Shown here in pieces: positions 1,123-52,500 of a DNA stretch of 64,000 bases. Each line of letters begins with the position of its first letter. The first letter of the stretch is position 1. Source of the stretch: Pseudomonas tohonis (lineage in GTDB: Bacteria > Pseudomonadota > Gammaproteobacteria > Pseudomonadales > Pseudomonadaceae); assembly GCF_012767755.2 (NCBI RefSeq), contig NZ_AP023189.1:2353501-2417500 (forward strand), read 5' to 3'. The notes beneath the pieces were generated by a model. The model saw nothing but the letters and a program-made list of their open reading frames with translations. It had not been told where the DNA came from and did not search any database. Made by a program: the position numbers and the translations under genes.

Positions 1123-1902
1123 TCAGTTTTTGCTATTTTCCCAAGCCGCCGTAGCAATATCAAAGATTTGGGAAATGACTCGTTTTAGTTCTTCAGGCGA
1201 GAGATATGCAAGGTCAATAATCTGATTTTTTACCCTAATAACTTTTGTGGCCGAGCGCATGATGTCTTCCATTGGGCCGCGTCCAACCTTTTCTGCTGTT
1301 CTGAGCCAGCACTCTGCTACTGCGTTGGCCAGCGGGGGATTGCCGCCAATTGATGCACGCTCGAATATCTGAACCATCGCATCTTCAGTGAGCTGCTTGA
1401 CGAGCTCCCAGCGCTCAGGGGCTTCATCGCCTCGGTCCAAGATTGTTCCCCTTACCCAGAGTCTCTGGAAAGCGTTACGAACACCTCCCGCAAAGCGGGC
1501 CACCCGTTCACGGGAGTTATCTGCAAAGCGCCATGCCACAACGTCTGGTGCGAGAACTGTCGCCATGAATGCCCAGACATCGTCGCGAAGGGCTTCGCCA
1601 GACTTTAGCTCTTTCTTCTGCGCGAGATAGATCGCTGCCTCCTGATCAAACTGCGATCTGGCTGATTGCGAGTTGGTGTTGGGGAAGCCGGATCTCTGGG
1701 CGATTCGTCTCAGCTCTACCGCTACGTCGACCGCAACTGCATCAGCTCTGGCGCCACCGCTCGGGGCGATGGATTTCAGCGATGCATACTCACTGAGCAG
1801 GTCTATTCCAGTCTTACCGCCGGGAGGTACTTCCTTGAGACGTTCAAGGATGGTGGTGATGCCGTGAGCCTTCAGGCGTGGCAGGAGAGAAACTCGCGTC
1901 AT
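1123..1902 (-). CDS. Uncharacterised protein, last gene of the MORC/Z1 restriction operon
   Basis: I do not recognise a named family in this 259-residue protein. It looks largely alpha-helical, without signal peptide or membrane segments. Residues about 5-50 (LLPRLKAHGITTILERLKEV onward) look like a small helical head. The middle (about 105-150) is rich in W, F and R (DDVWAFMA, VVAWRFAD, AFQRLWVRG). The ATG overlaps the stop of the upstream gene by 4 bp (ATGA), so the two are probably translationally coupled and made with the ATPase. Its position suggests an accessory or specificity role in the restriction system; that is inference from context. Confidence 0.6.
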   Translation of the reverse strand: MTRVSLLPRLKAHGITTILERLKEVPPGGKTGIDLLSEYASLKSIAPSGGARADAVAVDVAVELRRIAQRSGFPNTNSQSARSQFDQEAAIYLAQKKELKSGEALRDDVWAFMATVLAPDVVAWRFADNSRERVARFAGGVRNAFQRLWVRGTILDRGDEAPERWELVKQLTEDAMVQIFERASIGGNPPLANAVAECWLRTAEKVGRGPMEDIMRSATKVIRVKNQIIDLAYLSPEELKRVISQIFDIATAAWENSKN

Positions 1903-2804
1903 TCCATTTCTCCAAAGTCAGCAATGGCCAAGATCGAGGCCCTGAACTTGCCAGGCTTGTAGGTGTGCATTTGACGAATGCTGTCGAGGCTTTGGCCGGA
2001 GAAGGCCATTTCCATCCAGACTCTGGCCTGATAGCCAATCGAGCCTTCCTCATACTGGGCAAGCTCTGCTTCATCTTCGCTTGCTAGTGCGGCCTCGATC
2101 ATCTGCGTCATCACATCGGCGACCATGACCTGGAGCGTCAGAGGATCTCCCTCTACGAACCTTTCGGTTATGTGCTCGTTGTCCGAGTTGATGTAGAGCC
2201 TGACGTTACCGCTGAAGTCAGCATCAAGGGTTGTCGGATTCCATTCCACAAGCCAAGGGGCGTGTTGCTCCGGCCTGCCTTTGAAGCTGTCGGAGAAGCT
2301 TGCAAGTTCTATGGGGAATCTTGAGTCGCCACCGTCTTCGATGAGGATGTTTTTCTGGCTCTGCCAGAGACGGGCTCCTCGCTGTTTCGGCGAAAGTGCG
2401 TTCCCGGCATCGGTGGGAGACTCTAGGAGAATTCGAAGGCTCAGCTGAAGTTGCCCTGAAAGCGTTCTGCCGGGTACGACCGCGTCAACCTCCACGGAGG
2501 TGTTGTCCGCGTCAATGATCGTGGTTTGAAGGCGATCGAGTCGGCGTGGCAGGGTTCCGGCTCCGGTCCCCGTAGCCATCACCACCGCAAGCCTGAGGGT
2601 TCCGGGATCGATCTCCAGCATTTCTGCAGCTCTCGGGAAATCAATCGCGATATGGGCATTTACCTGAATGTCCTGTTCGTAGTCCCAGTTTTCCAAGATG
2701 TCCGAAGCAGGAGAGAGCGGCTCATTCGGTGGACCAATCACCCAGCCGCTGAAGTTCACCACTTCGTTCGAGAGTGCTAGAAAGGGGAGGGCGATCCGGC
2801 TCAT
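1899..2804 (-). CDS. Uncharacterised protein encoded beside the GHKL ATPase
   Basis: A 301-residue soluble protein of unknown family. The first 200 residues alternate short hydrophobic strands, suggesting a beta-rich fold (IALPFLALSNEVVNFSG; VDAVVPGRTLSGQLQLSLRILL). The C-terminal 70 residues are helical and acidic (EAALASEDEAELAQYEEG). It overlaps the ATPase gene and the following gene by 4 bp each, so it is an integral member of the operon. Possible roles are a target-recognition or scaffold subunit for the ATPase-nuclease complex. There is no motif evidence for catalysis. Confidence 0.6.
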   Translation of the reverse strand: MSRIALPFLALSNEVVNFSGWVIGPPNEPLSPASDILENWDYEQDIQVNAHIAIDFPRAAEMLEIDPGTLRLAVVMATGTGAGTLPRRLDRLQTTIIDADNTSVEVDAVVPGRTLSGQLQLSLRILLESPTDAGNALSPKQRGARLWQSQKNILIEDGGDSRFPIELASFSDSFKGRPEQHAPWLVEWNPTTLDADFSGNVRLYINSDNEHITERFVEGDPLTLQVMVADVMTQMIEAALASEDEAELAQYEEGSIGYQARVWMEMAFSGQSLDSIRQMHTYKPGKFRASILAIADFGEME

Positions 2805-4651
2805 TGGTTATCCCTGCTCAAGAATTGCAGGCGAACGCCAACGGCAGCTTCTGGTGGACTGAGGACGGAAACTCTGACAATGCCGCTCTGTATCCCCACT
2901 ATGAGAGTCGAGTCATTGATTGTTTTGCCTGTTTCTATGAGTGACATCTCGATGACTCTTGTTTCGTAGCCCGAAGGAAGATCTCCTGCGTCGGCTTTAG
3001 CTCCATCGGCAATCAGATGGGGTTCAGCAAAAAGCTCAAGCGAATCATTGCCTTCATCATTCTGAAGGTCTGCTTCGAACACGGCACAGCGTTGGCCCTG
3101 CTCGTCGATTTTCAAGCGAATGAAGCGTGCAGGAGAGATGAAGAGTTCGTTTCTCCTGGATGGGCTTCGCGGTGCTGGTTTTGGCTTGCCTGGTCCCTTC
3201 CCTGAAACGGAGTCAAGCAAGCGGCCGAGGCGGGTGGCTGTGCTTGCGAGGGATGGGCCGCGTTCGCCCGCGTTGGCGTTGGGTTGCAACACCGGGGTTG
3301 CGTAAGTGCTTGCGATTGATTCGATGCGCTTGAGTGCAACTCGGACATACGTTTTTGCATTGCGGTCAGGCAGATTGTCCGGGATCCAGTCGTCATGAGC
3401 TGGTGGTTCGGACAGCGCGAAGGCTGACTCCACGTCATTTTCATCCGAGCAGATAAAGACGCCGGCCCATTCGAACCGTGAGTCAGGATAGGGGTTGCCC
3501 TCTACATACTTCACGATCAGCTCGACAGGGCGCATTAGCGCTATATGTCTGGCCTGCTTTGGTATGACAGAAAGCTTGTCCAACGCAGCTCCAGAACGGG
3601 CAGCGCAGAGCCCCTTCGCAATAACTAACTTCCCGAGATTCTTCTTGGGGCGTTCACTCCTGATGATCTCTACATCGCGATCTTCGCGATAAGCCGCCAT
3701 GGCTGCTGCAAAGCGATCAAACGGGGGGAACTCTTCTGGAATTGGCAATGGCACTTCATTACCTTCGATTTCCACTCGAATGTTGAGCTTCTTTGCTTCA
3801 GGAGTAGAAGCAGTGAGTCTGGGCCAGAAGTTCCACAGGATGATCTCCTGAATGTAATGATCGACAGGCCGTGCCTCGTCACCTTCCTCAAGATGGGGTG
3901 CGAGAATCATGATCGAGGTTCCGGTATTGTTGATGTCCCGCTCTGGCATTCCCAGTGATGCTGCTGTGGTGGCGGCTGACTCTTCCGTCAACGGGTCAAT
4001 ACCGCCTTCTCCGTCGCTCACTCCCCACCAGTGCCGTCCAGTGAAGCGCTTGCGCCTACCATCGCCGGCGTCTCCATCGAAAGCAGAACCCAGGTGGCAG
4101 CCCATGAATCTGCGTATTGGCTGACCCTCGCAGGTGGTCTGGCTGTCGACTAGGATGGTTGAGCAGGCGCTCATCGCGTACAGCGAGGTTTTGCCGTAAC
4201 CGTAAGTGCCGCCGCCGTGATGCGTATCGCGAGCGACCCCCACGTTTCGCAGGAAGTTGACGAAGTCGAGGGACTCTTCACCGTCCGATGCCACATCTCC
4301 CGAGGTCGGACCGCCAAGCCCCGTGGAATTGAAGTCGCAGATCTCCAAGACCTTGAGGTTCTGCTTGTTGATTGCTGCGACTATGTCCTCACGGGTCTGA
4401 TCGTCTTGAGGAAGATCACCTAGCACCCGGTCTTTGAGTGCGCTGCACTGTTCGGCTGTCAGCGTTCTCAAGCGAATCTGCAGGGAGGGGCCGTGTCCCA
4501 TTCGAGCAGCATCAATGCTGTTCTGAATGGACTCTCGGAGGACGGTCTGAAGCAGATCTTGGGCAGGGCTCCCTAGGAGCCGCTTGAACCCGTCTGCAGC
4601 TATGTTTCCTGTCTTGGCGAACGGTTCGCTGAAAAGTTCCAGTCGTGTCAT
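2801..4651 (-). CDS. GHKL-type ATPase related to MutL/MORC (paraMORC), restriction-system component
   Basis: A 616-residue protein with the Bergerat ATP fold at its N-terminus: N-box E40-x3-N44 (RESIQNSIDAAR), G1 motif D106-x-N108-x-T-G (CDFNSTGLGG) and G2 lid GGGTYGYGK at 146-154. The remaining 400 residues lack recognisable motifs and probably hold the transducer and a dimerisation region. In the MutL/MORC-associated restriction systems described by Iyer, Abhiman and Aravind, such ATPases sit with a Z1 helicase, a PD-(D/E)XK nuclease and a DNA methylase, exactly as here. It is expected to act as an ATP-driven DNA clamp or loop-forming subunit. Four-base overlaps with both neighbours indicate coupling. 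Confidence 0.8.
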   Translation of the reverse strand: MTRLELFSEPFAKTGNIAADGFKRLLGSPAQDLLQTVLRESIQNSIDAARMGHGPSLQIRLRTLTAEQCSALKDRVLGDLPQDDQTREDIVAAINKQNLKVLEICDFNSTGLGGPTSGDVASDGEESLDFVNFLRNVGVARDTHHGGGTYGYGKTSLYAMSACSTILVDSQTTCEGQPIRRFMGCHLGSAFDGDAGDGRRKRFTGRHWWGVSDGEGGIDPLTEESAATTAASLGMPERDINNTGTSIMILAPHLEEGDEARPVDHYIQEIILWNFWPRLTASTPEAKKLNIRVEIEGNEVPLPIPEEFPPFDRFAAAMAAYREDRDVEIIRSERPKKNLGKLVIAKGLCAARSGAALDKLSVIPKQARHIALMRPVELIVKYVEGNPYPDSRFEWAGVFICSDENDVESAFALSEPPAHDDWIPDNLPDRNAKTYVRVALKRIESIASTYATPVLQPNANAGERGPSLASTATRLGRLLDSVSGKGPGKPKPAPRSPSRRNELFISPARFIRLKIDEQGQRCAVFEADLQNDEGNDSLELFAEPHLIADGAKADAGDLPSGYETRVIEMSLIETGKTINDSTLIVGIQSGIVRVSVLSPPEAAVGVRLQFLSRDNQ

Positions 4652-5649
4652 CCAGCAATCCTTTTGAGTGCTGTCTCACTATCAAGGGGGGAGAGCTCGA
4701 AGGATTTCGAATGGCTGAGATCAACCCAGTATTCCAAGGCGAACACACCAGCTGGAATGGCCCCTGCCACGAAGCTGGAGCTGACAATCCGGGGAAAGCC
4801 ATCCGTAATAACGTAGAGCGTCGTTCCTTCTAGGGTGAAGGTGAGGCGATTCCACTCTGGCGAGTGCGGATCGGCACACTCCAGCGCTTCAAGCCCTTTT
4901 TTTATTGAGCCTTTATCGACACCGAGTTTGATGAGGTCGTCAAAGAGGACTCTCACGGAAAGGGGGCCTTTCTCTACTCGCTCCAGACGAATGTGGGCCA
5001 GGTGCAGGGTGCCTCCGGCAGGTGGGTCCAGTTGATCAATGCCGTGAATGGCCACTCTGGTCGCGTCGGAGCGGCCGGAGGTCTTCACCTCCAGTGCGTG
5101 GACGTCCCGTCGAAAGTCATGACGCAATTCGTGGGGGCCGGTCCAGACTTCTGCGGCAGCCGTGTTGTAGCTGGCCAGGCGTCTTAGAATTTCCAGTTCG
5201 CCGATTAGGCCTTGGATCTTGATGTCGGGGATCTCGTCACGAGACTGTTCCCTAAGAAGCTCCCTGAAGTCGTCAATGGCCTCGACCACGGCTTTGAGGG
5301 GAGCATGGCCTTCGGTAATCCGTCGCAGAATTTCCTCTGCTAGCTCAGCGAACACTAGGTCCAGAGAGCGATCTAGGGACATGATGTCGATGAACAATGC
5401 CCTTTTTCCGGCGACGTTGAAATTCGACGTCGTTACTTGGAGCTTCGAGGTGGACGAGAGGCTTTTTAGCGAGGCACTTACTGCAACAGGAATCAGAAGG
5501 CGCGGCTGCCCTTGGGGACCGATCGCGTATCGCGCCTTGCCGAAGCCTGTCGTTATGCCGGAGTCGATGCTGGGGACTTCGATTACTCCGTCACCAGCAC
5601 CGGTTGCGTTCAGCCTCTTCCAGCGTTCGATGGCACGTTTAGTCATCAA
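4648..5649 (-). CDS. PD-(D/E)XK-motif nuclease subunit of the restriction system
   Basis: A 333-residue protein with a restriction-endonuclease core. A helix GLIGELEIL carries E151; W169-T-G-P leads to HDF with D178; the strand LEVKT supplies E187 and K189. Together these give E-...-D-x(8)-E-x-K, the metal-binding signature of the superfamily. It overlaps the Z1 frame by 11 bp and the ATPase by 4 bp. The expected role is the DNA-cutting subunit, targeted by the Z1 helicase and GHKL ATPase to DNA lacking the cognate 5-methylcytosine. The annotation rests on the motif and the operon; specificity cannot be read from the sequence. Confidence 0.75.
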   Translation of the reverse strand: MMTKRAIERWKRLNATGAGDGVIEVPSIDSGITTGFGKARYAIGPQGQPRLLIPVAVSASLKSLSSTSKLQVTTSNFNVAGKRALFIDIMSLDRSLDLVFAELAEEILRRITEGHAPLKAVVEAIDDFRELLREQSRDEIPDIKIQGLIGELEILRRLASYNTAAAEVWTGPHELRHDFRRDVHALEVKTSGRSDATRVAIHGIDQLDPPAGGTLHLAHIRLERVEKGPLSVRVLFDDLIKLGVDKGSIKKGLEALECADPHSPEWNRLTFTLEGTTLYVITDGFPRIVSSSFVAGAIPAGVFALEYWVDLSHSKSFELSPLDSETALKRIAG

Positions 5650-8082
5650 GCGCCTCTGCTAGGGCCTCGGCGAGTGCTTCTTCTTCCGAACCAGCCTGCT
5701 CTGGGACTGGGGCGTCCAGTTCGACCGAGAAGTAGTCACCGGCCTGATCCTGGGTGCCTGGGAAGACAATGCCGATACCGATCAGATCGCCAACGGCATC
5801 GAGGTCGGCACGATTATCCGATTGTTTTTTCGACTTCCCATCGATTACATAAAGCAGCAGTAGAGGGATATTCGGGCGCCGCTCTTTGTATCCAGACCAG
5901 CCTTTATCATCTGAGGTGGTGGCACTGGAAGGGTCGGCGTCGATGAGGATGTCGCTCTTCGACATCAGAGCCTTGATGTCGGCATACCCTCTTTCGTTTC
6001 CAGGCAACTGAGAACGACGAGCTGCGTTTACTGTGCCAAGAACGCCCAGAGGCTTTGCAGAAATATTTTCCCCGCTCGGGGTGATGATGCCGACGTTCCA
6101 TTGTCGAAGGCTATCTGATGCTTGGTCGATATAACCGAGCAGGAGATCCTTCTTCAAGTCCATGTGGTGCTCGCTGATGTCATATGCGAGCAGGAATTTG
6201 CGAATCTCCTTGAGGGATACGTCTCGAACGAGCCAGCGCTTGCGCTTGTTTTGCTCCTCAATCACCCGTTCGCCCGAAATTTCATTAATGAAAGCGACGG
6301 CTGCATCCCAGTTTCCCGCGACTTTACTGTGGCTCTGATGGTCGAAGCGAATGGTCTGCACGTGGCGACCTTCGAAGCTGATGTTGCTGCGATAGGCGTG
6401 TCGCATCTTGGATGCTGCGGTGATTGCCATCCCTGGGATGGCACGGACCCGAACCGCGAATTCTTTCGGCGTCACATTGTCCTTCTGATAAGTGCTGATG
6501 TCTTCGCGGATCTCCTCCTCAATGCGAGCGAGCGCTCTGAAGTTCGAAGCCAATTCTGCAGTAGTCCAGAGACGGGGCAGATCTTCATAGCCCTGCCTGT
6601 AGCCGAACCAGCGGCCCATCTGCAGTAGTGTGTCGTACTGCATGGAAGTGCGCAGGAAGAAGGACACTGACAATCCTTCTAGGGTAAGGCCACGGGCCAG
6701 AACTGTGCCGCCGACGACGATGTAGACCTTCGGTTCTTTGGTGAAGTCCAGCCGTTCCAGACTCTCGCCATTCTCGACAGCAAACTCCAAGGCATCCAGT
6801 ACGCTACTAAGATGGGGAATCAGATCGTCTAATGAGTAAGCATCTTTGTATTCGAATGGAACCAGACTCGATTCTTCTTGGAGCAGCTGATTCATTTTGT
6901 TGTGCAGATCACCGGACTTGCTGATCAGTGCGTCTTGGTTCTCTTTGATCCAGCCTTCTAAAAGCTTGGCCATTCTGGTGTGCTGGATAATGTAAGGGGA
7001 GGTGTGGACAAGCATGGTCATATGCTTGTCTTGTTGGCCTCGAGCACGCCGGATCGCGCAGCTGAGCAAGAACCAGAGGGTGGCTTTCTCCAGTTCGTCG
7101 GTCATCTGAGGATGGAAGGTGTCCTTATCGCCTGCGCGAGCAGGACGCAACTTACCCAACTTCTCTGTCGGGACGTTGCGAATCATGTTCCTGCCGGCTT
7201 CTTCAGGAGATTCTGGATTGTCGGGGTTGTCCGGGCCGAAACCAAACACCTCGCGCGCGCCGAAGTACCCTTCTGTTCTGGGCAGTGCGGTGATGAAGTC
7301 TTCTGGGTAAAGATCGTCTAGGTCGTTCTGATTCAGTGGATATGGATCGATAAATACGTTGGCAAATGGAGTCGCCGTATAGCCCACGTATGAGACCGAC
7401 GGCAGTGCTTTGAGAATCTTGCGGATCTCGGCGTTGATCCGGGTCATATCGTAATCGTTGTCTGAAGAATTGACCGAGGCTTGGTCGCATTCATCATCAA
7501 TCAGCAACACCTTCAGCTGCCGGAGGATCGCTAGCGGTGTCTTCGGTTTGCCCTTGTCGTCCACGATCGTCTTACGGAATGTCTCCAGTCGCGACGTGAC
7601 CTTCTTCATCACAACGAGCTGTGCACGCCCCTCGACAGGCATGGTGAACGAGCCATTCATTGGGTAGGTGAAATCACCGTCATCTTTCTCGGTGGTGTAG
7701 AGCTGCCACAGCGGTCGATGGCGATTGACGATGTCGTTCTCTATGCGTCGCTGAGTTTGAGCGCGCAGCTTGTTCGTCACCCCGCCCAGTAAGACAATCA
7801 GGTTGTACCCAGCATCCACGGCCTTGGCGATCACAGCCGTCATGTTTGCCGTCTTACCGGACTGAACATACCCGACGACCAGGCCTCGATGGCGGAAGCT
7901 CTCGCTCTTGGGGTTGGCGAGCAGCGAGACTACCTCTGACGAGCTTTCGTCAATGGATGCAATGGCATCTTTATTCCAGCCCTTGCTGTTCGACAGATAG
8001 CCTTTTAGGGCCGGCCAATGAACATCCTTCATCGCCGGGCCCGTGAATCGCCCCGGCTTTTGTGGAGGCCGTTTCGTTTAAG

Positions 8083-8979
8083 TCAGGCCGCCATGGCCTG
8101 ACCTGCTTGTTGCTGGTGGAAGTTTGCCTCAGCCTCCGCAGGCGGGATATAGCCGATTGAGCTCAACAGGCGCTGGTGGTTGTACCAGTGCACCCATTTC
8201 AAGGTCGCCATCTCAACAGCCTCGCGGCTCTTCCACGACTGGCGGTAAATCAGCTCGGCCTTGTACAGCCCGTTGATAGTCTCAGCCAAGGCGTTGTCGT
8301 AGCTGTCGCCCTTGCTGCCAACCGAGGGTTCAATACCGGCCTCTGCCAGCCGCTCGGTGTAGCGGATCGAGACATACTGGCTGCCACGGTCGCTGTGATG
8401 GATCAGACCACCCGTGCAATGCGGCTGGCGGGCATACAGGGCTTGCTCCAGAGCATCCAGCACGAAGTCGGTCTTCATGCTGGTACTGACTCGCCAGCCA
8501 ACGATCCGCCGCGCAAACACGTCAATCACGAAGGCCACATACAGCCAGCCCTGCCAGGTCGACACGTACGTGAAGTCCGACACCCACAGCTGATTTGGAC
8601 GGTCGGCATGGAACTGGCGCTGCACACGATCCAGCGGACAGAGCGACTTGTCGCCGGCCACCGTTGTTCGCATGACCTGGCCGCGCCTGATGCCCTGTAA
8701 TCCAGCCCGACGCATCAACCGCTCCACCGTGCATCTGGCCACCTCGGTGCCTTCTCGCCGGAGCTGCTTCCAGACCTTCATCGCGCCATAACACTGCATG
8801 TTGGTGTCCCATACACGCTGGATTTCCAGGATCAATGCGTCATCGCGTCGAGCACGGCAGCAACGTAATGCCGGGTTGCGCTGCTGAGCCGCGTGCCTGC
8901 GGTAACCGGACGGGGCGATCTGCAAGACACGGCAGATCGACTCGACCCCGAGACGGTCACGATGCTGATCGACAAATGC
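8083..8979 (-). CDS. IS3-family transposase OrfB (DDE integrase domain)
   Basis: This is the catalytic part of the transposase, with an HTH_21-like N-terminal region followed by an rve integrase core. The triad is visible: D in WVSDFTYV, D in IHHSDRGSQY and E in NALAETINGLYKAE. The conserved sequence begins at AFVDQHRD just after the OrfA stop codon. The first possible start (a TTG at 8925) lies inside conserved sequence. OrfB is therefore probably made as an OrfAB fusion by -1 frameshifting, as is normal in this family. I did not find a classic A6G slippery heptamer in the overlap, so the exact slip site is open. Confidence 0.9.
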   Translation of the reverse strand, partial: AFVDQHRDRLGVESICRVLQIAPSGYRRHAAQQRNPALRCCRARRDDALILEIQRVWDTNMQCYGAMKVWKQLRREGTEVARCTVERLMRRAGLQGIRRGQVMRTTVAGDKSLCPLDRVQRQFHADRPNQLWVSDFTYVSTWQGWLYVAFVIDVFARRIVGWRVSTSMKTDFVLDALEQALYARQPHCTGGLIHHSDRGSQYVSIRYTERLAEAGIEPSVGSKGDSYDNALAETINGLYKAELIYRQSWKSREAVEMATLKWVHWYNHQRLLSSIGYIPPAEAEANFHQQQAGQAMAA

Positions 8980-8981
8980 CC

Positions 8982-9305
8982 TCAGGATTTGGTGCGGCGG
9001 TCGAGCTCCGCCTGGGCAAAATACGCACTGGCCAGGCGCAGAATCTCGTTGGCTTTGCGCAGCTCGCGGTTCTCGCGCTCCAGGGCCTTTATGCGCTCGC
9101 GCTCTTCGCTGGTCTGACCAGGGCGCTGACCGGCATCGGTCTGCTGGCGGCGAATCCAGCCATGCAGGGTTTGCGCTGCGCAGCCGATTTTCGGCGCAAT
9201 GGCCTCAATGGCCGCCCACTCGGAGGGGTAGTCGTTCAGGTGTTCCAGAACCATGCGCACAGCACGTTCACGGACTTCGGGGGAGTAGGTCGTAGTCTTT
9301 CTCAT
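8982..9305 (-). CDS. IS3-family transposase OrfA (HTH and leucine-zipper protein)
   Basis: A 107-residue protein. It has an N-terminal HTH ([14 protein letters not shown] ... [23 protein letters not shown]) that recognises the element ends. A coiled coil of leucine-zipper type follows ([20 protein letters not shown], then [17 protein letters not shown]), which multimerises with OrfB. The ATG at 9305 lies 50 bases inside the right end. Length and layout are typical of OrfA. Confidence 0.9.
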
Positions 9306-9812
9306 GGCCTCATCTTCTCAAGAGTTGGGGCCTCCACGAAACCCGGGGCGATTCACCGTGTACCAAGGGTCACGCTTCTTGACGAGAGAGTTGCGACGAA
9401 GAATTTCGACATCCTCAAGCGAAGCTACAACCTGCTCCAAGGCGAATGTCAGGCTCTGCTCCATTTCCTCGGAGAACGAAATTCCCATGCTGGTGATGTC
9501 CTGCCTCAAGGCTTGCGCGGCTTGCTCAGGCGTGTCGTGGGTAGGGAGTTTGTCGCGAATCTGACGAACGAAGGCTTCGATCTGCGGGGTTGTCACGGCA
9601 GCATTCCTTACTTGCAGTCCAGAGTTATCAACGGTCCTGGTTCGCTGGACGGGTCGTTCCGTTCGACATCCAGGCCGCTCCTTTTGGTGTCACTTTGCCA
9701 TCTTGTGGCCGGAGAGCCCAGCCCGAATTACTTAGGTTGGCGCATCGGGGTAAGCGTATAGGGAATATCGTGACACCGTCCCATCGAACCCAGCAACGGC
9801 AAGCCTCAACCG

Positions 9813-10271
9813 TCAGGCAGTGACTGGGGCAGGAAAGGCGGGCCAGGAGATATATTTTTGATTACAATCCGGCACGGTTTCCAAAAGCCAGTTCATCTCT
9901 GCTTCCGGCCCGCGTATCCCGCACTCCCACAGCTCCAGCACTCGCCACCCCATGGCCAGCAGGGCATTCTTGTTCCTGGTATCTCGGGCGACGTTCTGGT
10001 CAAATTTGCTCTGCCAGAATTCCGGGCGGGTACTGGGGGTAGTCGCATAGCGACAACCGAGGTGCCGATGCCAGAAGCACCCATGCACAAAAATGCATAC
10101 GCGATAGCGCGGAAGCACCAGATCCGGCCTTCCAGGGAGGTCCTTTTGGTGCAGGCGATACCTGAAGCCGTGTCGATGTAACAGACGCCGGACTTTCATT
10201 TCCGGCGATGTGTCACGGCTACGAATGCCCGCCATCATGCGAGACCTGATTTCTTTACTGACTATGTCCAT
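9813..10271 (-). CDS. vsr: Very short patch repair (Vsr) endonuclease
   Basis: The 152-residue product matches Vsr over its whole length: the start MDIVSKEIRSRMMAGI, then FRYRLH, the catalytic Asp in LPGRPDLVLP, VHGCFWHRH with the conserved His and Trp, and the zinc-site and basic segment CRYATTPSTRPEFWQSKF. Vsr nicks beside T in T:G mismatches arising from deamination of 5-methylcytosine, so it protects sites methylated by the adjacent C5 methyltransferase. Its start codon overlaps the first codons of that divergent gene. The 216 bp between its stop and the Z1 start hold no gene I can see and may carry the Z1 promoter. Confidence 0.92.
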   Translation of the reverse strand: MDIVSKEIRSRMMAGIRSRDTSPEMKVRRLLHRHGFRYRLHQKDLPGRPDLVLPRYRVCIFVHGCFWHRHLGCRYATTPSTRPEFWQSKFDQNVARDTRNKNALLAMGWRVLELWECGIRGPEAEMNWLLETVPDCNQKYISWPAFPAPVTA

Positions 10272-11958
10272 GACTCAAGACCAGCAGAACCTCTTCGAAG
10301 ATACGCTCAAAGACCCAACAGAAGAGCTTGCCCGTGCTATCCAAGTGGTTGACCTCTTCGCGGGCCCCGGGGGCTTGGGAGAAGGTTTCACTTCGTTCGG
10401 CGAAGGCAACCGCTTTGACATCGTCGTGTCTGCGGAAAAGGATCCTAAAGCCTGGCAAACTCTTCGTCTGAGGGCCTTTTATCGGCTGCTCAAGAAGGAG
10501 CGGCGTGACCGCCTCCATGAGTACTATAAGTACTGCAATGACCCATCCGCATCCGGTGAATTCACTCCTTCGGACGAAACAAGAGAGCTATGGGAGAAGG
10601 CAGCCAAAGAGGCCCAGTGCATCACCCTTGGTAGCGTCGAGGGAAACGCGGCTTTAGACAATGCTCTGGATCAACGTCCTGGCGGCCTCCAGCACGAGCG
10701 CCCGTGGGTTCTTATTGGTGGTCCGCCCTGTCAGGCTTACTCCGTCGTCGGGCGTGCCCGTAATCAGGCCAAGGTCGACTACGTGGCTGAAGAGGATCAC
10801 CGCCACTTCCTCTACAAGGAATACCTGCGAATTATTCGAGAGAAGCAGCCGACCATCTTCGTGATGGAAAACGTGAAGGGCATTCTCTCCTCCAAGATCA
10901 ACAACGAGCGGATATTCTCCAACATACTGAAAGACCTGTCTGCGCCCCCTGAGGGTGAGGCCGGTAAGCGCTACCACATCTATTCGTTGGTGACTGGGAC
11001 ACATTTTGCCCCGGATGACGATGTCGACAAGATTGATCCGCGGGCATTCATCATCAGAGCTGAGGACTACGGCATTCCTCAGGCTCGACATCGCGTCATC
11101 CTATTGGGGATCGCAGAAGACTGCCTCCCTGATGATGTGACCCAAGTAAAGCTGAGCAAGGACAGCCCGGTGGCTACTGTGGGGCAGGTTCTGGGGAATT
11201 TGCCAAAGCTGCGTAGCAGCTTGACCAAGATTGAGGATAGCCAAGATGCGTGGGCCTCTGTCGTAGTAGACCAAGTGAGGTACTTGCGCGATCAGGTCGA
11301 TGTTAAAGAGGAGCTGTGGCGAGCTTTGGGCGATGTCACGAAGGACTTCAATCCTCCGGCAACCCCTGGTGCAAGAAGGGTTCCGCGAGCTCCCGGCAAC
11401 GTTGATGGCGCGACTGGCAATCAAGCTCTTGATGAGTGGTACCGAGACAAGGATCTGAATTGCTGGCTTAACCATGAGGTTCGAGGGCATATGCCGACCG
11501 ATCTGCGTCGCTATGTTTTTGCAGCTGCCTACGCCAAGCTCAATGGTTTTTCCCCAAAGGGACACAAAGGTTTCAACCTTGAGGGCTTGGCGCCCGACCA
11601 TAAGAACTGGGAGAGTGGCGTATTCAGCGATCGATTCCGAGTACAGACGGAGAATCTGCCGGCTACGACGATCACCAGCCATATCTCCAAGGACGGGCAC
11701 TACTTCATCCACTATGACCCGCAACAGTGCCGCAGCCTGTCTGTGCGTGAAGCAGCTCGTATTCAAACCTTCCCAGATAACTACTTCTTCCAAGGAAATC
11801 GAACCGAGCAATTCCATCAGGTTGGCAATGCCGTTCCACCGCTATTGGCATCTAAGATCGCCAGAGTCGTCTTCCGATTGCTCTTCGAAAAAGTGAAAGC
11901 GTTCGACGAGAGGACAGCTGCGCTTGAGCAGGTGGAACCTAAAGCTGTGTGCGGTTGA
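10264..11958 (+). CDS. C5-cytosine DNA methyltransferase of the MORC/Z1 restriction system
   Basis: A 564-residue protein with the canonical motif order: I VVDLFAGPGGLGEG (28-41), IV GGPPCQAYSVVGRAR with catalytic Cys156, VI FVMENVKG, VIII QARHRVILLGI, IX/X SVREAARIQTFPDNY, and finally QVGNAVPPLLASKIA. The region between VIII and IX is long, as expected for a target-recognition domain, so specificity is probably not simple Dcm (CCWGG). I chose the ATG at 10264. An upstream start at 10210 would run deep into vsr, and no convincing Shine-Dalgarno distinguishes 10264 from 10270. It methylates host DNA against the neighbouring nuclease. With the Z1 gene broken it may now act as an orphan methylase with Vsr. 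Confidence 0.92.
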   Translation: MSMTQDQQNLFEDTLKDPTEELARAIQVVDLFAGPGGLGEGFTSFGEGNRFDIVVSAEKDPKAWQTLRLRAFYRLLKKERRDRLHEYYKYCNDPSASGEFTPSDETRELWEKAAKEAQCITLGSVEGNAALDNALDQRPGGLQHERPWVLIGGPPCQAYSVVGRARNQAKVDYVAEEDHRHFLYKEYLRIIREKQPTIFVMENVKGILSSKINNERIFSNILKDLSAPPEGEAGKRYHIYSLVTGTHFAPDDDVDKIDPRAFIIRAEDYGIPQARHRVILLGIAEDCLPDDVTQVKLSKDSPVATVGQVLGNLPKLRSSLTKIEDSQDAWASVVVDQVRYLRDQVDVKEELWRALGDVTKDFNPPATPGARRVPRAPGNVDGATGNQALDEWYRDKDLNCWLNHEVRGHMPTDLRRYVFAAAYAKLNGFSPKGHKGFNLEGLAPDHKNWESGVFSDRFRVQTENLPATTITSHISKDGHYFIHYDPQQCRSLSVREAARIQTFPDNYFFQGNRTEQFHQVGNAVPPLLASKIARVVFRLLFEKVKAFDERTAALEQVEPKAVCG

Positions 11959-13375: not shown

Positions 13376-14227
13376 ATGAACGCGCGTCTCGCTGAATGGA
13401 CCCAAGACATCATCACCATCCTCACCCAACCCCCGGGCCAACCCCAGCTGCAGGCTTTGACCGACTGGCTGCAGCGAACCGCCCCGGTCGATCACGTCTC
13501 GCTGTTCCTCTTCGAAGGCAGCGATGCGCCCTTGCCGCTGTTCCACACCTTGCCCGCCGAGCTGCAGGCCACCTTCATCGACGACTACCGTGGCGGTTCG
13601 TACCTGTTCGATCCGTTCTTCCTCGCCTGCACCTTCGAGCGGCCGGATGGCCTCTACAGCATGCGCACGCTGGCGCCGGGGAGCTTTCGGGACAACCACT
13701 ATTTCCAGCTCTACTACCGCCGCCTGGAATTGAGCGAGGAGCTGGGCTTCTTCACCACGCCCGCGCCGGGTTGCCGCGCGGTGTTGTCGTTGATGCGCGG
13801 GCAGGGTGGGGCGGTGTTCAGCGAGGAGGAGCTGGAGCTCCTGGGCATCGCGGCGCCGGTGGTGCAGGAGGTGGTGCGCCTGGCCTGTGAGGCGCGGGGC
13901 CAGCCGCCGGTGGATGCGCTGCAGCCCAGCGACCATGTGCGCGAGGTGTTCAGCCTGTTTGCGCGGGAGCTGCTGACGCCGCGCGAGTGCAAGGTGGTGC
14001 AGCTGCTGTTGCAGGGCTATTCCAGCAGCGAGATCGCCCAGCAGCTGCGCATCACCCGGGGCACGGTGAAGGTTCACCGGCGCAACCTCTACGACAAGCT
14101 GGAGATCGGCACCCAGGCGGAGCTGTTCGGGTTGTTCGTGCGTGAGCTGATGGGCGCGCGGATGTTCAGCCGGCCGCAGCGACGCGGCCGTGCCCAGTCG
14201 CGCTCTGCTGTCAGCCGGAGCCAATGA
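13376..14227 (+). CDS. LuxR-family transcriptional regulator
   Basis: A 283-residue protein preceded by GAGGGAG at good spacing. The first 190 residues form a PAS/GAF-like sensory domain rich in aromatic residues (FIDDYRGGSYLFDPFF, HYFQLYYRRLELSEELGFF). The C-terminus carries a GerE-type HTH: ELLTPRECKVVQLLLQGYSSSEIA, then the recognition helix region TRGTVKVHRRNLYDKL. There is no receiver domain and no autoinducer-binding signature I can identify, so the signal is unknown. After the HTH comes a basic tail (RPQRRGRAQSR). It is divergent from the S24 repressor; the next gene is a tricarboxylate symporter 197 bp downstream, with no evidence that it is a target. Confidence 0.85.
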   Translation: MNARLAEWTQDIITILTQPPGQPQLQALTDWLQRTAPVDHVSLFLFEGSDAPLPLFHTLPAELQATFIDDYRGGSYLFDPFFLACTFERPDGLYSMRTLAPGSFRDNHYFQLYYRRLELSEELGFFTTPAPGCRAVLSLMRGQGGAVFSEEELELLGIAAPVVQEVVRLACEARGQPPVDALQPSDHVREVFSLFARELLTPRECKVVQLLLQGYSSSEIAQQLRITRGTVKVHRRNLYDKLEIGTQAELFGLFVRELMGARMFSRPQRRGRAQSRSAVSRSQ

Positions 14228-40527: not shown

Positions 40528-43500
40528 ATGGCTGAATTGACGAGCGCGCAGATCGAAACCCTGGTACGTGCCGTTCAGGTGGTCACGGACTTCCTGACCG
40601 GCCATGCGCCCGCCGAGGTCACCTCGCTGGAGCAGGCCCTGCAGACCATGCATGACATGCTCCTGGCCGCCGGCGTACCGCTGCAGATGGCCGCCGCGTT
40701 GCGCCAGGCCGTGGCGGCCCAGGCCAACGCCGCTGCCGCCGGCACCGGCGCGGTGGATGCCTCTGCCTGGGTCGGGGCCTGGCTCGCGGATGCCCAGCTC
40801 CCGGCCCAGCCGGATGCACCGGCGGAGCGCCACGACGGCGTTCAGGCGCTGGAGGCGACCCGGTTCCCCGGCCAGCCGGACGGCTCGACCATTCCCGGCC
40901 CGGCGCCCTTCGACAGCACCTACCGCCCCGAGATCACCGGCCTGTTCGGCCAGGACATCGACCTCGACCGGCCTAACGTCACCTTCCGACCCGAGCAGGC
41001 CGCGCTCACCGGCGACATGACCGGTAGCGGCATGCTGCCGCCCGGCGTCCCGCCGGAGCTGGCCATGCTCAACCTCGACGGCATGGGCCCGGGCCTGCTC
41101 GGCGGTGTCAGCTCCGGCATCGGCACCGGTGCGGCCAGCCAGGGCACCTCGGGCGTGGCCGGCGGTGGCCTCGGCGTGTTCCCCAACCTGCGGGGCGACA
41201 CCGGCATCGGCAGCAGCCTGGCTGCCGGCACCAACAGCGAGCTGCCGGCGGGCTTCGAGCCGCCGGCCGCACCGACCCTGACCGGCGAGACCAGCGAGCC
41301 GGCCTCGGTACTCAGCGTGGCCGGCGCCCCCGAGGTGCTCGAAGGCGACGACGGCGACACCCTGGTGCTGGTGTTCACCGTCAGCCGCAGCGGCGGCACC
41401 GGCGCCAGCCAGGTGCAGTGGAACCTCTCAGGCCTGGACCCGGCCCTGTTCGGCGGCAACCTGCCGGGCGGCCTGCTGGCCTTCGCCGAAGGGCAGATGA
41501 GCCAGGAGATCCGCATCGAGGTGCCCGGCGACTACCTGGCCCAGGGCGACCGCAGCGCCACCGTGACCCTCAGCGGCCCCAGCGCCGGCAGCCAGCTCGG
41601 CCAGCCCAGCGCCAGCACCCAGATCCTCGACAACGAAGCCACCGTCAGCATCGTCGCCACCCGCGTGCAGGTGCTCGAAGGCGACGAGGGCGACCAGCAA
41701 CTGCTGACCTTCGTGATCACCCGTGACAACGGCCGCGCCCCCGCCACCGTCGACTGGAGCGCCAGCGGCCTGGACGCCGCCGACATCGGCGGCCCGCTGC
41801 CCTCCGGCAGCCTGGTCTTCGGCGTCGGCGAGGTGAGCAAGACCATCACCATCCCGCTGCTGGGCGACCGCGTGGTCGAGCCCAGCGAAGTGCTCACGGT
41901 CACCCTGGGCAACCCCAGCGCCAACCTCATCATCGGCACCGCCAGCGCCAGCACCACCGTGGTCAACGACGACGGCCTGGTGTCCATCCGTGCCAACCAG
42001 GCCCAGGTCACCGAGGGCGACAGCGGCACCACCACCACGGTCAGCTTCACCGTCACCCGTACCGATTCCCAGACCGCCGGCTCGGTGCGCTGGTCGGTCA
42101 GCGGTGTCGATGCCGACGACATCGTCGAAGGCATCGACGGCGGCATCCTGGAGTTCGCCGCCGGCGAGACCAGTCGCGACATCGTCCTCACCGTGCGCGG
42201 CGACCGCGACGTGGAGGAGAACGAGACCCTCACCGTCAGCCTGCAGAGCGACCAGAGCAACCTGCGCGTCTCCGGCGGCAGCGCCAGCACCCAGATCGTC
42301 AACGACGACACCGGCGTCAGCCTGCGCGGCGTGACCATGGACGTGGTCGAGGGCGGGCAGGGCCAGCAGACCGCGATCACCTTCCTGGTGACCCGCTCCG
42401 AGCTGCTGGGCCAGGACCTCACCATCGACTGGCGCTTCGTCCGGGTCGGCGCCCACGCCGCCGACGCCAACGACTTCGTCGCCGGGCAGAACCAGCTCGG
42501 CATGGCCGACGGCATGCCCAGCGGCAGCGTCACCTTCGCCGCCAACGAGACCCAGAAGCTGGTCACCGTCTGGGTCAAGGGCGACAACCTGGCGGAAACC
42601 GACGAAACCTTCGGCATCGTGCTGCACAACCCGCCGGCCGGCGTGCAGGTCATCAACGGCGAGGCCTACGGCACCATCCGCACCGACGAGTCCACCTACA
42701 GCATCGAGGCGCTGACCGCGTCCACCACCGAGGGCAACGGCACCGGTGGCGTGCAGGCCTTCGTCATCACCCGCACCGGCAACACCAGCGGCGCCGGGCA
42801 GGTCGGCTACCAGATCGCCGGCTATGGCGAGCTGCCGGCCGACGTCAACGACTTCGCCGCCGACCAGCCCATGAGCGGCGTCGTGCAGTTCGCCGCCGGC
42901 GAAAGCAGCAAGGTCATCTACGTGCGCCTCAACGGCGACAGCCTGATCGAGGGCACCGAGAGCTACACCGTGGCGCTGCAGGCCCAGGACGCCAACAGCC
43001 AGATCGACGTCGGCGCGGCCCTGGCCAGCATCGACCCGGACGACCAGGCGGTGTCCATCAGCGCGCGCACCGCCAACGTCCGCGAGGGCACCAGCGCCGC
43101 TCCGGTCCTGGAGTTCGTGGTCACCCGCACCGGCGAGCTGTCGCTGCCGGGCAGCGTGCAGTGGCACGTGCAGGGCTACGGCAACAACCCGGTGGACGCC
43201 GCCGACTTCGGCGGCACCCTGCCGTCCGGCACCGTCGAGTTCGCCGCCGGCCAGAGCAGCGCGGTGATCCGCTTCAGCCCCACCCCGGACAGCCACTACG
43301 AGCCCACCGAGGGCCTGCAGGTGGTCATCAGCACCAGCACCCCGGGCATGAGCGTGATCCAGGATCGCGCCACCGGCAGCCTGATCAACGACGATGCGCG
43401 CCTCTCCCTCGACGGCAGCGGCCTGACCGCCGCCGAAGGCAACAGCGACACCCCGCGCCAGCTCAACTTCACCGTGCAGCGCCAGGGCGACCTGACCCAG

Positions 43501-46500
43501 AGCGTCAGCGTCGACTGGCGCGTGGTGTTCGGCAGCGACGCCGACTCCGCCAGCCTCGCCGACTTCCTCTCCGGCACCGCCTTCAGCGGCACCCTGGAGT
43601 TCGGCCGTGGCGTGCAGAGCCTGGTGGTGACCCTGCCGCTGTCCCCGGACAACGTGCTGGAGGCCAACGAAACCTTCCAGGTGGTGCTGAGCAACCCCAG
43701 CGCCGGCGCCGAGATCTCCGTCGGCCAGGCCACCGGGGTGATCCGCAACGACGACGTGGTGTTCAACCTGCTGCCCCAGGCCGACAGCTTCGAAGGCAGC
43801 GGCGGCACCCGTGAGCTGCGCTATGTGGTCGAACGCAGCGGCGATCTCGCCGGCAGCGACAGCATCACCTGGAGCCTCGCGCCCGGCGCCCTCAACGGCG
43901 TCGACGGCAGCGACTTCGTCGGCGGCGTGCTGCCTTCCGGCACCCTGGTGTTCGCCGCGGGCGTCGATCGCCTGGAGATCGTCCTGCACATCGCCACCGA
44001 CTCGCAGCTGGAGGGCGACGAGAGCTTCGTCCTCAGCCTCGGCACGCCGAACCCCGGCGCCACCGTGGGCAACGGCAGCATCAACGGCCAACTGCTCAAC
44101 GACGACCAGCAGTTCTCCATCCAGGCCCAGGCCTCCAGCGTCAGCGAAGGCGGTGACGGCCAGGTGGCCCAGCTGAGCTTCGTGGTCAACCGCAGCGGCT
44201 ACCTCGGCGGCACCGGCAGCGTCGCCTGGCGCGTGGTGGGCGAGGGCGGCAACCCGGTGGACGGCGCCGACTTCGTCGGGGGCGTGCTGCCCGGCGGCAT
44301 TCTCAACTTCACCAGCGGCGCCACCAGCCAGACCATCACCCTGCAGGTGGCCGGCGACTACCACCTGGAGGCCAGCGAAGGCCTGCGCGTGGAGCTCTAC
44401 GACCCGGCGACCGGCTCCAGCCTGGGCACCGCCACGGCGTCGGCCACCGTCACCAACGACGACACCGGCCTCTCCATCGCCACCACCCGCAGCGGCCTGG
44501 CGGAAGGCGACAGCGGCACCGTCATCCATGAATTCACCGTGACCCGCTCCGGCGTCACCAGCGGCACCACCACCGTGGACTGGAGCCTTTCCGGCCAGGT
44601 GGACGCAGCCGACTTCGCCGGTGGCGTGCTGCCGGCCGGCACCCTGACCTTCGCCCCGGGCGAGACCAGCAAGGTGATCCAGGTCGCCGTGCGCGGCGAC
44701 CGTGATGTCGAGGGCGACGAAGCCTTCACCGTCACCCTGGGCAACGCCAGCGGCCACGCCGAGATCATCACCGGCCAGGCCCAGGGCAGCGTCGTTTCCG
44801 ACGACGTGGGCATCAGCATCCAGGCGCAGCAGGCCGAGGTGGCCGAAGGCGCCACGGGCGAGACCCAGGTCCTGCGCTTCACCGTCACCCGCAGCGGCGA
44901 CCTGTCCGGCCCGGTCAGCGTGACCTGGACCGCCAGCGGCCTGCAGGCGGACGACTTCGCCCCCGGCACCGCCCTCAACGGCCTGGTGCAGTTCGCCGCC
45001 GGCGAGACCAGCAAGGTGATCGAGCTGACCCTGGCCGGCGACGCCGTGCTGGAAAGCGACGAGACCCTCACCCTGACCCTGGGCAACCCGGCGGAAAACC
45101 CCGCCCACGACCAGACCCAGCTGCTCACCGGCAGCGCCAGCACGCTGGTGCGCAACGACGACGTCGGCCTGTCCATGGTCGCCGACCAGGCCAGCGCCGC
45201 CGAAGGCGATGCCGGCCAGGAGCGCAGCTTCACCTTCACCGTCACCCGCTCCGGCGACCTGCGCGCCACCAGCGTCGACTGGAAGGTGCAGGTGGGGCAG
45301 GGCGTCGACGCCGCCAGCCTCGCCGACTTCATCAGCGGCCAGGACGCCCTGGGCGCGAACGGCGGCCTGCCGTCCGGCACCCTGCAGTTCGCCGAGGGCC
45401 AGACCGCCGCCCAGGTCACCGTGCGCGTGTCCGGCGACGGCCACATCGAGCTGGACGAGACCTTCGGCGTCAGCCTGGAGGCCCGTGACGGCAACACCGA
45501 ACTGACCGTCGGCAGCGCCGACAGCCGCATCGACAACGACGACCTGGGCTTCTCCATCAGCCCGCTCGCCGCCGACAAGGCCGAAGGCCACAGCGGCACC
45601 ACCGCCTTCACCTTCACCGTGACCCGTGCCGGCGACCTGGGCTCGGCCGCGCTGGTGGACTGGTCCCTGGCCGGCATCGCCAATGCCGCCGACTTCGACG
45701 CCAGCACCGGCACCCTGAGCTTCGCCGCCGGCGAGGCCAGCAAGACCCTGACCGTGCTGGTCAAGGGCGACCTGGTGGTGGAAGCCGACGAGGCCTTCAG
45801 CGTCAACCTGGGCAACGCCCGCCTGGACGACGGCACCCCGCAGAACGTGGTGGATGGCAGTGCCGAGGGCGTGATCCGCAACGACGACCAGGGCTTCGCG
45901 GTGGTCGCCGAGCGCACCACCGTCAGCGAAGGCACCGGCGGCAGCCAGACCGTGATCTACCGCATCGTGCGCAGCGGCGAGCTGTCCGGCAGCGCCACGG
46001 TCGACTACGCCGTCAGCGGCGCCAACGGTGGTGACGCCAGCGACACCCTGGGCGGCCTGCCCAGCGGCACCCTGACCTTCGCCCCGGGCCAGTCGGAACT
46101 CACCGTCAGCTTCGAGCTGGCCGGCGACAGCCGCGTGGAGGGCAGCGAGGCCTTCACCCTGACCCTGAGCAACCCCAGCGCCGGCCTGGTGACCGGTGCC
46201 ACGGCCACCACTACGGTGCAGGACGACGACACCAACTTCAGCATCAGTGCCCCGGCCGCGCAGGCCGAGGGCACCCAGGGTGCCTTCACCGACATCACCT
46301 TTACCGTGACCCGCAGCGGCCTGAGCAATGCCGCCGGCTCCGTGCAGTGGCGCCTGAAGAGCGCCACCGGCCTGGACACCGCCGACTTCGCCAGCGGCCA
46401 GGACGGCAACGGCAACAACGGCGGCCTGCCCAGCGGCACCGTGACCTTCGCCGCCAACGGCAGCGACACCCAGACCATCACCATCCGCGTGCGCGGCGAC

Positions 46501-49500
46501 AACCTGGTCGAGGCCGACGAACTGCTCCAGGTGGAGCTGTTCAACCCGCAGGGCGGCACCGTCGAGGCGGGGCAGGGCAGCGCCAGCACGCGCATCCTCA
46601 ACGACGACGCCAGCTTCGCCATCGCCGCCGATGCCGCGAGCCTCGCCGAAGGCAACAGCGGCGAGCGCCTGGTGAGCTTCACCGTGACCCGCAGCGGTTC
46701 GCTGTCCGGCAGCCGCGACCTGACCTGGACCCTCGGCGGCGGCCTCGACGCCAGCGACCTGGGCGCCGGCCAGGGCAGCACCGGCACCGTCAGCTTCGCC
46801 GACGGCCAGGCCACCGCCACCGTGGTCATCCGCGTCAAGGGCGACTCGCAGTACGAGGGCGACGAAGCGGTCACCGTGACCCTGTCCAACCCGCCGGCCA
46901 ACAGCAGCATCAGCACCGCCAGCGCCACCACCACCCTGACCAACGACGACGCCACCCTGAGCATCGGTGCGTTGTCGGCGGACAAGGGCGAGGGCAACAG
47001 CGGCTATGTGGACTTCACCTTCAGCGTCAGCCGTGGCGGCTACCTGAACCAGGCCAGCAGCGTGCAGTGGCGCGTCGACCCGAGCGTGGCCAACGCGGTG
47101 GACGGCGCCGACTTCTACGGCAGCCAACCGGGCGGTGTGCTGCTCGATGGCGACGGCATCCCCTACGGCACCCTGACCTTCGCCGCCGGCGAGAACAGCA
47201 AGACCATCACCGTGCGCATCGCCGCCGACAGCAAGCTGGAGGCCAACGAGGTGCTCAAGCTGGTGCTGGAGAATGCCTCCGCCGGCACCGAGATCACCAC
47301 CGGCAGCGCCACCGGCACCGTGCGCAACGACGACGCCGAGCTGAACATCACCGCCGGCACCACCAGCCGCAGCGAAGGCGACGGCGCCCATGGCACCGGC
47401 GCGCCCTTCACCTACACCGTGACCCGCACCGGCAACCTGGACCAGGCCAGCACGGTGAACTGGAGCGTCCAGCACCTGGACACCAATGCCGCCGACTTCA
47501 CCAACGGCTCGGCCTACCTGACGCCCTCCGGCACCCTGAGCTTCGCCGCTGGCGAGAGCAGCAAGACCATCACCGTCTACGCCTACGGCGACACCGGCGT
47601 GGGCAGCATCGAGGGCAACGAGCGCTTCAACCTGGTGCTCAGCGGCGCCAGCAGCGGCACCTCCATCGGCGCCAACGGCAGCTACCAGAGCACCATCGCC
47701 AACGATGACACCCGCGTCACCGTCGAGTGGGTCCAGGCCAGCCAGGCCGAGAAGGTGGCCGGCGAGAACACCACCTACACCATCACCCTGACCCGCAGCG
47801 GCGACCTGGCCAAGACCTCCACGGTCAACTGGAGCACCACCGGCCAGGACGTCTGGTCCTACAGCAACGGCCGCTGGGAATACGCGGCCGACGGGGCCGA
47901 CTTCAATGGCGGCACCCTGCCGTCGGGCAGCGTGACCTTCGCCAGCGGCGAGACCAGCAAGACCATCACCCTCACCGTGCGCGGCGACGACACGGTGGAG
48001 GACGACCAGTGGTTCAAGGTGCTGTTCAGCAATGCGGGCGGCATCGACGAGCTGGTGGCGCCGCAGACCGGCAGCCAGAACATCTACACCAGCGACACCA
48101 CGCTGCAGACCAACACCAGCGCCAGTGGCGTGTACCTGTTCGGCGAGATCCAGCGCGACGAGGCGGAGTTCTACATCCAGGACACCCCCACCACCGGGCG
48201 CACCCGCGTCGAGGGCGACACGGTGGCCGACGGCGGCAGCGCGGCCGATGGCTACATCGAACACACCTTCGCCGTGTACCGCACCGTTTCCACCTCCGGC
48301 ACCGCCTGGGTGGACTGGGCCGTGCAGACCAGCGTCAGCGGCTACACCGCCACCGACGCCAGCGACTTCTGGAACAACACCGTGCCGTCCGGCCGCGTGG
48401 AGTTCGTCGATGGGCAGTCGGTGGCCTACGTCACCATCCGCACCAAGGTGGACGACGCCGGCGAGCAGGACGAGGCCTTCCGCCTCTACCTCACCCAGGC
48501 CAGCCCGGGCAGCAGCATCCAGGGCGGCTCCAGCGCCAACCCCGGCTACGTCAACAACCACGTGGTGCTGCAGAACGACGACACCCGCTTCGACGCCAGC
48601 GTGGCGCATGTCAACGAAGGGCAGGACCTCGTCTACACCATCACCCGCAGCGGCGACCAGCGCGGCACGGATTCGGTGGACTGGTCCATCCAGCTGGGTG
48701 GCTCCGAGAGCACCAACGAGACCAACAACACCCGCAGCACCTGGTACAAGCTCGACCCCGCCGACCTGGACATGGACTGGATCCTGGCCAACAACCCGGG
48801 CCTGTCGTGGAACGCCGGCACCCGCACCCTGAGCGGCAGCTTCACCTACACCGACGGCGAGCTGACCAAGACCATCACCCTGCGCACGATCAACGACGGC
48901 CTCGCCGAGACCTGGCGCGAGGAAGCCACCCTGGTGCTGGGCAACCCGCAGAACCTGGACGGCGACATCGAGACGCCCTCCATCGGCTCCAGCGCCACGG
49001 GCCGCGTCTACGACGACGAGCCGGCCGCATTGCTGGGCGTCAGCGCCGGCAGCACCCAGGTGTTCGAGGGCAGCGCCGCCAGCACCAGCGTGACCTTCAC
49101 CATCACCCGCACCGTGCAACCCGGCGGCAGCATCGACTACGCCAGCACCGTGGCCTGGCAGATCGTCGGCAACAACATCAACTGGGGTGGCAACAACGGT
49201 GGCCAGGTGAGCGGCTATGGCGGCAACACCGTCTGGTCCAGCTCGCCCTACTACAACACCACCTACGGCGTGGTGAGCTTCGCCGCCGGCGAGACCAGCA
49301 AGCAGGTGACCGTGACCTTCGGAGGCGACACCGTGATCGAGCCGGACACCGGCCTGACCATGACCCTGCTGGACCCGCGGACCGCCTACGACAACGGGTT
49401 CATCAGCGGCAGCTACCGCGACGAGTACGGCCCCACCAACATCGACCCCGCCCAGGCCAGCGCCAGCACCACGCTGCGCAACGACGACATCCGCCTGTGG

Positions 49501-52500
49501 ATGGGCAGCTTCGGCAACACCACCCCGAGCGTCGCCGGCTACGAAGGCCAGCCGCTGAACTTCACCCTGGTCCGCTCCGGCCGCCTGGATAACGACATCA
49601 CGCTGAACTACACCCTGACCAACGGCAACACCAACAGCGCCGACTTCGTCAGCACCAGCGGCACCATCACCCTGGCCGGTGGCCAGAGCAGCTACGCCAT
49701 TTCCCTGGCCAACCTGCTCAAGCTCGACGGCAGCATCGAGAGCACCGAGGGCTTCACCCTCAACCTCAGTGCGCCGGGCGACACCACCGGGTCCACCGTG
49801 CGCTTCGGCGTCGACTCCATCGCCGCCAGCACCGCCACCAGCATGAGCGTCGGCGGCACGCTGTACGACGGCGACACCGCCTACAGCATCACCCCCACCG
49901 CCACCAGCCTGGCGGAAACCGGCGCCGGCCAGTCCGCGACCTTCTCGCTGAACGTGGTGCGCAGCGGCTACACCGGCTCCGGCACGGTGAAATGGCGCGT
50001 GGAGGGCATCGGCGGCAACCCGGCGGACGCGGCCGACTTCACCGGCGGCGTGCTGCCCAGCGGCACCCTGGGCTTCGCCGATGGCGTCAACACCGGCACC
50101 ATCACCTTCAGCGTGCGCGGCGACGGCGCGGTGGAGGCCAACGAGACCTTCCGCGTGGTGTTCTACGAGGAGACCCTCAACGGCCCGGGCGTGACCCGCA
50201 GCCTGTCGCAGAACAGCGCGACGCTGACCATCACCAACGACGACACCGGCATCAGCATCGCCGACGCCTCGATCACCGAGAGCGACGCCAACCAGGTGCT
50301 GACCTTCACCGTCACCCGTTCCGGCGTGACCAGCGGCAGCTCGTCGATGAGCTGGTCGCTGCTGCACGACAGCACCAGCGCCGCCGACTTCAGCGGCGCC
50401 ACCAGCGGCACCCTGAGCTTCGCCGCCGGCGAGACCAGCAAGACCATCAGCGTCACCGTGGTCGGTGATGTTACGCCCGAGCAGGTGGAGCAGTTCCGCA
50501 TCGTCCTGGGCAGCTTCAGCGGCGATATCAGCGACCCGATCCGCACCACCGCCACCGGCACCATCCGCAACGACGACGCCACCTTCTCCATCGCGCCGTT
50601 GCAGGGGGCGACCAGCGAGGGCCAGGCGCAGACCTTCGTCATCACCCGCAGCCACGGCACCGAGCAGAACCAGACCATCAACTGGCAGATCCTGCTCAAC
50701 GGCAGCGCCGATGCGGCGGACCTCAATGGCCAGGCGATGTCCGGCTCGGTGACCTTCGCCCCGGGCGAGCTGACCAAGACCATCAGCATCCAGTCCAGCC
50801 AGGATGCCGTGGCCGAGGTCGACGAGACCTACAGCGTGCAGATCACCCTGGGCGCCGGCACCACCGGCGACACCATCAGCCAGGGCACGGCCGAGGGCAC
50901 CATCCTCAACGACGACGCCGCCTTCAACATCAGCGCCGACCAGGTCAGCCGCGCCGAAGGGCAGGGCGGTACCACCGCCTTCACCTTCACCGTGACCCGC
51001 ACCGGCGACACCAGCGGCAGCGCCTCGGTGGCCTGGCGCCTGGGCTCGAGCGTGGCCAACGCGGCGGACTTCGGCAGCGCCGACCTGCTCGGCGACAACG
51101 CCGGCCTGCCCAGTGGCAGCCTGGTGTTCGCCGACGGCGAGTCGAGCAAGACCATCACCGTGCTGGTGAACGGCGACACCCAGGTGGAAGGCGACGAGGC
51201 CTTCAACCTGGTGCTGGGCAACGCCAGCGGCGCCCAGATCCAGGCCGGCACCGCCAGCAGCACCATCCTCAACGACGACGCCAGCATCAGCATCGCCGCC
51301 ACCGACGCCAGCAAGGCCGAAGGCAACGGCGGCATCACCGCCTTCACCTTCACCATCACCCGCAGCGGTTCGCTGGACCAGGCCAAGACCGTCGACTGGG
51401 CGGTGGTGGGCAACGGCGCGCACCCGGCCGATGGCAGCGACTTCGCCGTCGGCGTGCTGCCCTCCGGCTCGCTGGTGCTGCCGGCCGGCCAGGCCAGCGT
51501 CACCCTCACCATCAACGTGCGCGGCGACCTGCTGGCCGAAAGCGACGAAGGCTTCAGCGTGGTGCTGAGCAACCCGTCCAGCGGCCTGGTGATCGGCCAG
51601 GCCAGCGCCGACGGCCTGATCCGCGCCGACGACGTGGTGATCGACGTCGCCGCCCCGGCCGCCCAGGCGGAGGGCGATGACGGCCAGACCACCTGGTTCG
51701 ACTTCGTGCTCACCCGCAGCGGCAAGCTCAGCGGCACCGAGACCATCAACTGGAGCGTCGCCGGCATCGGCGCCAACCCGGCCTCGGCGGACGACTTCCT
51801 GACCACCAGCGGCAGCGTCACCTTCGCCGCCGGCCAGGAGCAGCTGACCATCCGCGTGCCGGTGCGCGGCGACTACAGCGGCGAGGCCAACGAGGACTTC
51901 CGCCTCAGCCTGAACAGCGCCGACGGCGTGGTCTTCACCCAGGCCACGGCGGACGCCACCATCGTCAACGACGACGTTTCGGTGACCATCGTCGCCAGCG
52001 ACGCGCGCCACGTCGAAGGCCATGACGGCCTGCAGACCGTCTACACCTTCACCGTCAGCCGCAGCGGCAACCTGGATCGCGCCACCAGCCTGGACTGGAG
52101 CCTGCAGGGCCTGGCCGATGCCGCCGACTTCCTCGGCGGCGTGCTGCCCAGCGGCAGCCTCAGCTTCGCCTCGGGCGACGCAGCCAGCCAGACCATCAGC
52201 ATCGTGGTCCTCGGCGACCGCACCCTGGAGGGCGACGAGTCCTTCCAGGTGGTGCTGGGTAACGCCTCCGCCGGCACCGACATCAAGGTGGGCAGCGCCA
52301 CCGGCACCATCGTCAGCGACGACGTGCAGTGGAACCTCGCCGTCGTCGCCACCCCGGTGGAAGGCGACAACGGCTCCACCGGCTACAGCTTCCTGGTCAC
52401 CCGCACCGGCAGCGGCCTGGCCACCAGCCTGGCCTGGAGCGTCGCCGGCAGCGGCGCCAACCCGGCCTCGGCGGATGACTTCGTCGGTGGCCAGCTACCC

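Follow-up and report, generated by a model that had tools for sequence, protein, structure and literature searches.

A predicted methylating and DNA-cutting defence operon in Pseudomonas tohonis with its helicase gene split by an IS3-family element

Can a predicted defence operon whose helicase gene has been severed by an insertion sequence (IS) still cut DNA, or does it now only methylate? The question is raised by the left end of a 64,000-nucleotide stretch of Pseudomonas tohonis contig NZ_AP023189.1 (the window), where a helicase gene, a nuclease gene, a GHKL ATPase gene, a C5-cytosine methylase gene and a Vsr endonuclease gene lie together. We consider it likely that this is a known type of predicted methylating and DNA-cutting operon, its helicase split apparently recently, with the cutting half probably off and the methylating half intact. 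The locus is of an ordinary kind; the insertion reported in a preliminary description is confirmed, and its main interpretation is supported.

The insertion and the helicase gene

The inserted element is a complete member of the IS3 family. Its ends, TGAATCGCCCCGG..., form an inverted repeat (TG...CA) and are flanked on either side by the 3-bp duplication CCG. Two transposase frames, 9305-8982 and 8925-8083, run along the minus strand and are co-oriented with the interrupted gene; the accompanying frameshift signal is an ALIL pseudoknot at 8911-9027, which Rfam scores at 110 bits (cut-off 50). The genome holds four copies, this one included, identical at 1312/1312 positions, and a fifth matching at 1228/1312; relatives on Pseudomonas and Stutzerimonas plasmids are 91-94% identical and annotated as IS3 family, one of them as ISPst4. 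Because the copies are identical and the flanks clean, the insertion looks recent. Two of the identical copies (C1:6758116-6759427 and C1:329323-330634) have unmatched 3-bp flanks (GGG/CAC and CAC/CGT), which may reflect rearrangement between copies.

The element sits after helicase codon 79, and joining its flanks preserves the reading frame, in agreement with the single Z1 frame proposed beforehand. The search for uninterrupted homologues that had been suggested found them: the gene in genome G310 and 30 selected proteins of 853-916 amino acids (aa) run through both parts. Nor is the severed part unrelated sequence. Of at least 581 relatives, the 79 that scored best were compared, and 55 of these carry its WYxG motif; W78, Y79 and G81 were found in at least 90% of alignment rows.

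Composition of the operon and its relatives

Ten proteins were scanned against Pfam and PADLOC, and NCBIfam models were also used (Table 1). The methylase carries the motifs FAGPGG, PPCQ, ENV, QARHR and GNAV, its exact start being uncertain (ATG 10264 or 10270). The divergent Vsr gene encodes a protein that aligns to structure 1cw0 (E 5.3e-34), which we take to be Vsr of E. coli; both genes are intact, as had been described. The longer helicase part bears GYVQSGKT, DDE, TATP and DTLLQMGRWFG, and the GHKL protein has ATP-binding motifs and an S5-type second domain. In the nuclease (listed start TTG 5649, with an ATG at 5646), E151, D178 and E187xK189 are kept in 75-76 of 76 aligned sequences. 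P301 had no match in Pfam, PADLOC or NCBIfam and a tblastn match at 44 of the 79 related loci; its gene overlaps that of the DUF6339 protein by 4 bp.

This makeup supports the MORC-type restriction operon first suggested. The third helicase type of the paraMORC/MORC operons (Iyer 2008, PMC2292703) shares with this locus a superfamily 2 helicase with the signature DThhQXuRhFG (here DTLLQMGRWFG), a restriction endonuclease-fold partner with E-D-ExK (here the three nuclease sites above), a GHKL ATPase, a cytosine methylase and Vsr. The putative defence system 'type I' of Miller, Stern and Burstein (2022, PMC9523054) has the core domains PF14390 and PF00145, both found here, with the difference that one core gene is split by the IS. 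Type I also has three further genes and a repair endonuclease; here GHKL, P301 and DUF6339 agree with the former in number, and Vsr is the repair endonuclease. The PADLOC candidate PDC-M33 is matched moderately by the GHKL protein (PDC-M33A, E 1.2e-14) and weakly by the DUF6339 protein.

Table 1. Features of the operon and the inserted element (window coordinates)
Feature	Position	Strand	Evidence
DUF6339 protein (259 aa; final operon gene)	1123..1902	-	Pfam PF19866 E 2e-7; PADLOC PDC-M33C weak, E 4.6e-4
P301, 301-aa operon protein	1899..2804	-	
GHKL ATPase, 616 aa, paraMORC-like	2801..4651	-	
DUF4420 PD-(D/E)XK nuclease, 333 aa	4648..5649	-	PF14390 E 1.7e-45
Helicase main part, 797 codons	5639..8032	-	PF10593 E 2.2e-68
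CCG target duplication, left copy	8041..8043		
IS3-family element	8044..9355	-	inverted repeats, CCG duplication, ALIL pseudoknot
CCG target duplication, right copy	9356..9358		
Helicase N-terminal piece, 79 codons	9356..9596	-	58/79 identical to N-terminus of intact G310 gene
Vsr mismatch endonuclease, 152 aa, intact	9813..10271	-	TIGR00632 142.7 bits vs cut-off 97.85
C5-cytosine methylase, intact	10264..11958	+	PF00145 E 2.5e-49

Consequences of the insertion

On the analogy of what has been published for such operons, the methylase would mark host DNA, with Vsr protecting the methylated sites against deamination, whereas unmarked DNA would be acted on by the helicase, the nuclease and the clamp-like ATPase. 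The insertion would leave the helicase motor without its N-terminal bundle, and transcription of the operon would probably be lost through the IS.

Several points weigh against this reading. Phage restriction by type I systems is itself only predicted in the source consulted (PMC9523054). WYxG was absent in 24 of the 79 relatives, and tblastn placed all five operon genes at only 39 of these loci, some of the others being contig-cut or too diverged; moreover, picking the best-scoring loci favours intact genes. Helicase function may not be lost: the 797-codon part retains every helicase motif sought and could be made via read-through from the IS. The minus strand of the element has only one weak terminator-like site (9040-9024), and the whole scan gave four sites, near the 2.2 expected; with so few such sites, the downstream genes may still be transcribed.

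It is conceivable, if rather improbable, that the insertion did not disable the system and that read-through from the co-oriented transposase yields an N-terminally trimmed 797-residue helicase from ATG 8032, with restriction kept or altered. The preliminary description had raised such a product, with Walker A kept; its expression, however, found no support. The best Shine-Dalgarno match at ATG 8032 is 3/6, although other operon starts reach merely 4-5 and Vsr likewise 3; sigma70-like promoters in 7900-10500 numbered 0 against 0.7 expected, in a scan for one promoter type; and the part that would be missing is conserved. The trimmed helicase is thus possible but unsupported.

It is very unlikely that the locus is an MZA system (MzaABCDE). 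The NCBIfam scores fall below the equivalog cut-offs (MzaC, 375.8 against 1500 bits; MzaD, 51.5 against 420), the GHKL protein matches PDC-M33A, not MzaB, and no MzaB, MzaE or AIPR was found among the matches listed for the ten proteins (for the methylase, the best 25 of 57 in PADLOC). In contrast, congener G013 has a full MzaB-E set, and with the PADLOC model for MzaC it reaches 1299 bits where the present locus reaches 303. Least credible of all, and in effect refuted by the in-frame join and the intact homologues, is a native 797-codon gene with an intergenic IS and the 79-codon piece as an independent small gene or a frame open by chance.

Genomic setting and significance

The left flank encodes the Phe-tRNA synthetase beta chain, an IHF/HU-type protein and a MerR regulator (Pfam), followed by tRNA-Pro(GGG) (ARAGORN). 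It is the left flank (pheT, ihfA, MerR regulator, tRNA-Pro) given for the P. aeruginosa defence hotspot cDHS1 (PMC10250203). However, the host here is, by 16S, apparently another Pseudomonas species, and an island of ~60 kb separates tRNA-Pro from the defence system. The right flank of cDHS1 has DUF4011 and radical SAM genes; the genes seen on the right flank here include S24, LuxR-type and MFS genes.

The ~60 kb lie between full and partial tRNA-Pro copies (C1:2292884-2353076), and genes scanned within the right ~40 kb include those for an integrase, an RDF-like protein, YqaJ, DUF3987, cation efflux, a P450 and a fatty-acid hydroxylase. The LuxR-family gene at window 13376-14227 has a 97% identical stretch at C1:3803204-3803984. 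Further along, an open frame of 5,186 codons occupies window 40528-56088, opposed on the other strand by one of 3,531 codons.

A more far-reaching idea, which we regard as speculative and unlikely, sees in the insertion a 'mark but do not cut' state that is selected or reversible, and in the C5-methylase and Vsr a portable module re-paired with different effector operons at one hotspot. If true, an IS between conserved N-terminal bundle and motor would disarm a costly nuclease operon but spare the self-marking methylase together with Vsr as its safeguard, and the module would outlive its effector operons, which are type I at this locus and MZA in G013. The main value of the locus is as a natural instance of a predicted defence type in what is probably a methylase-only state.
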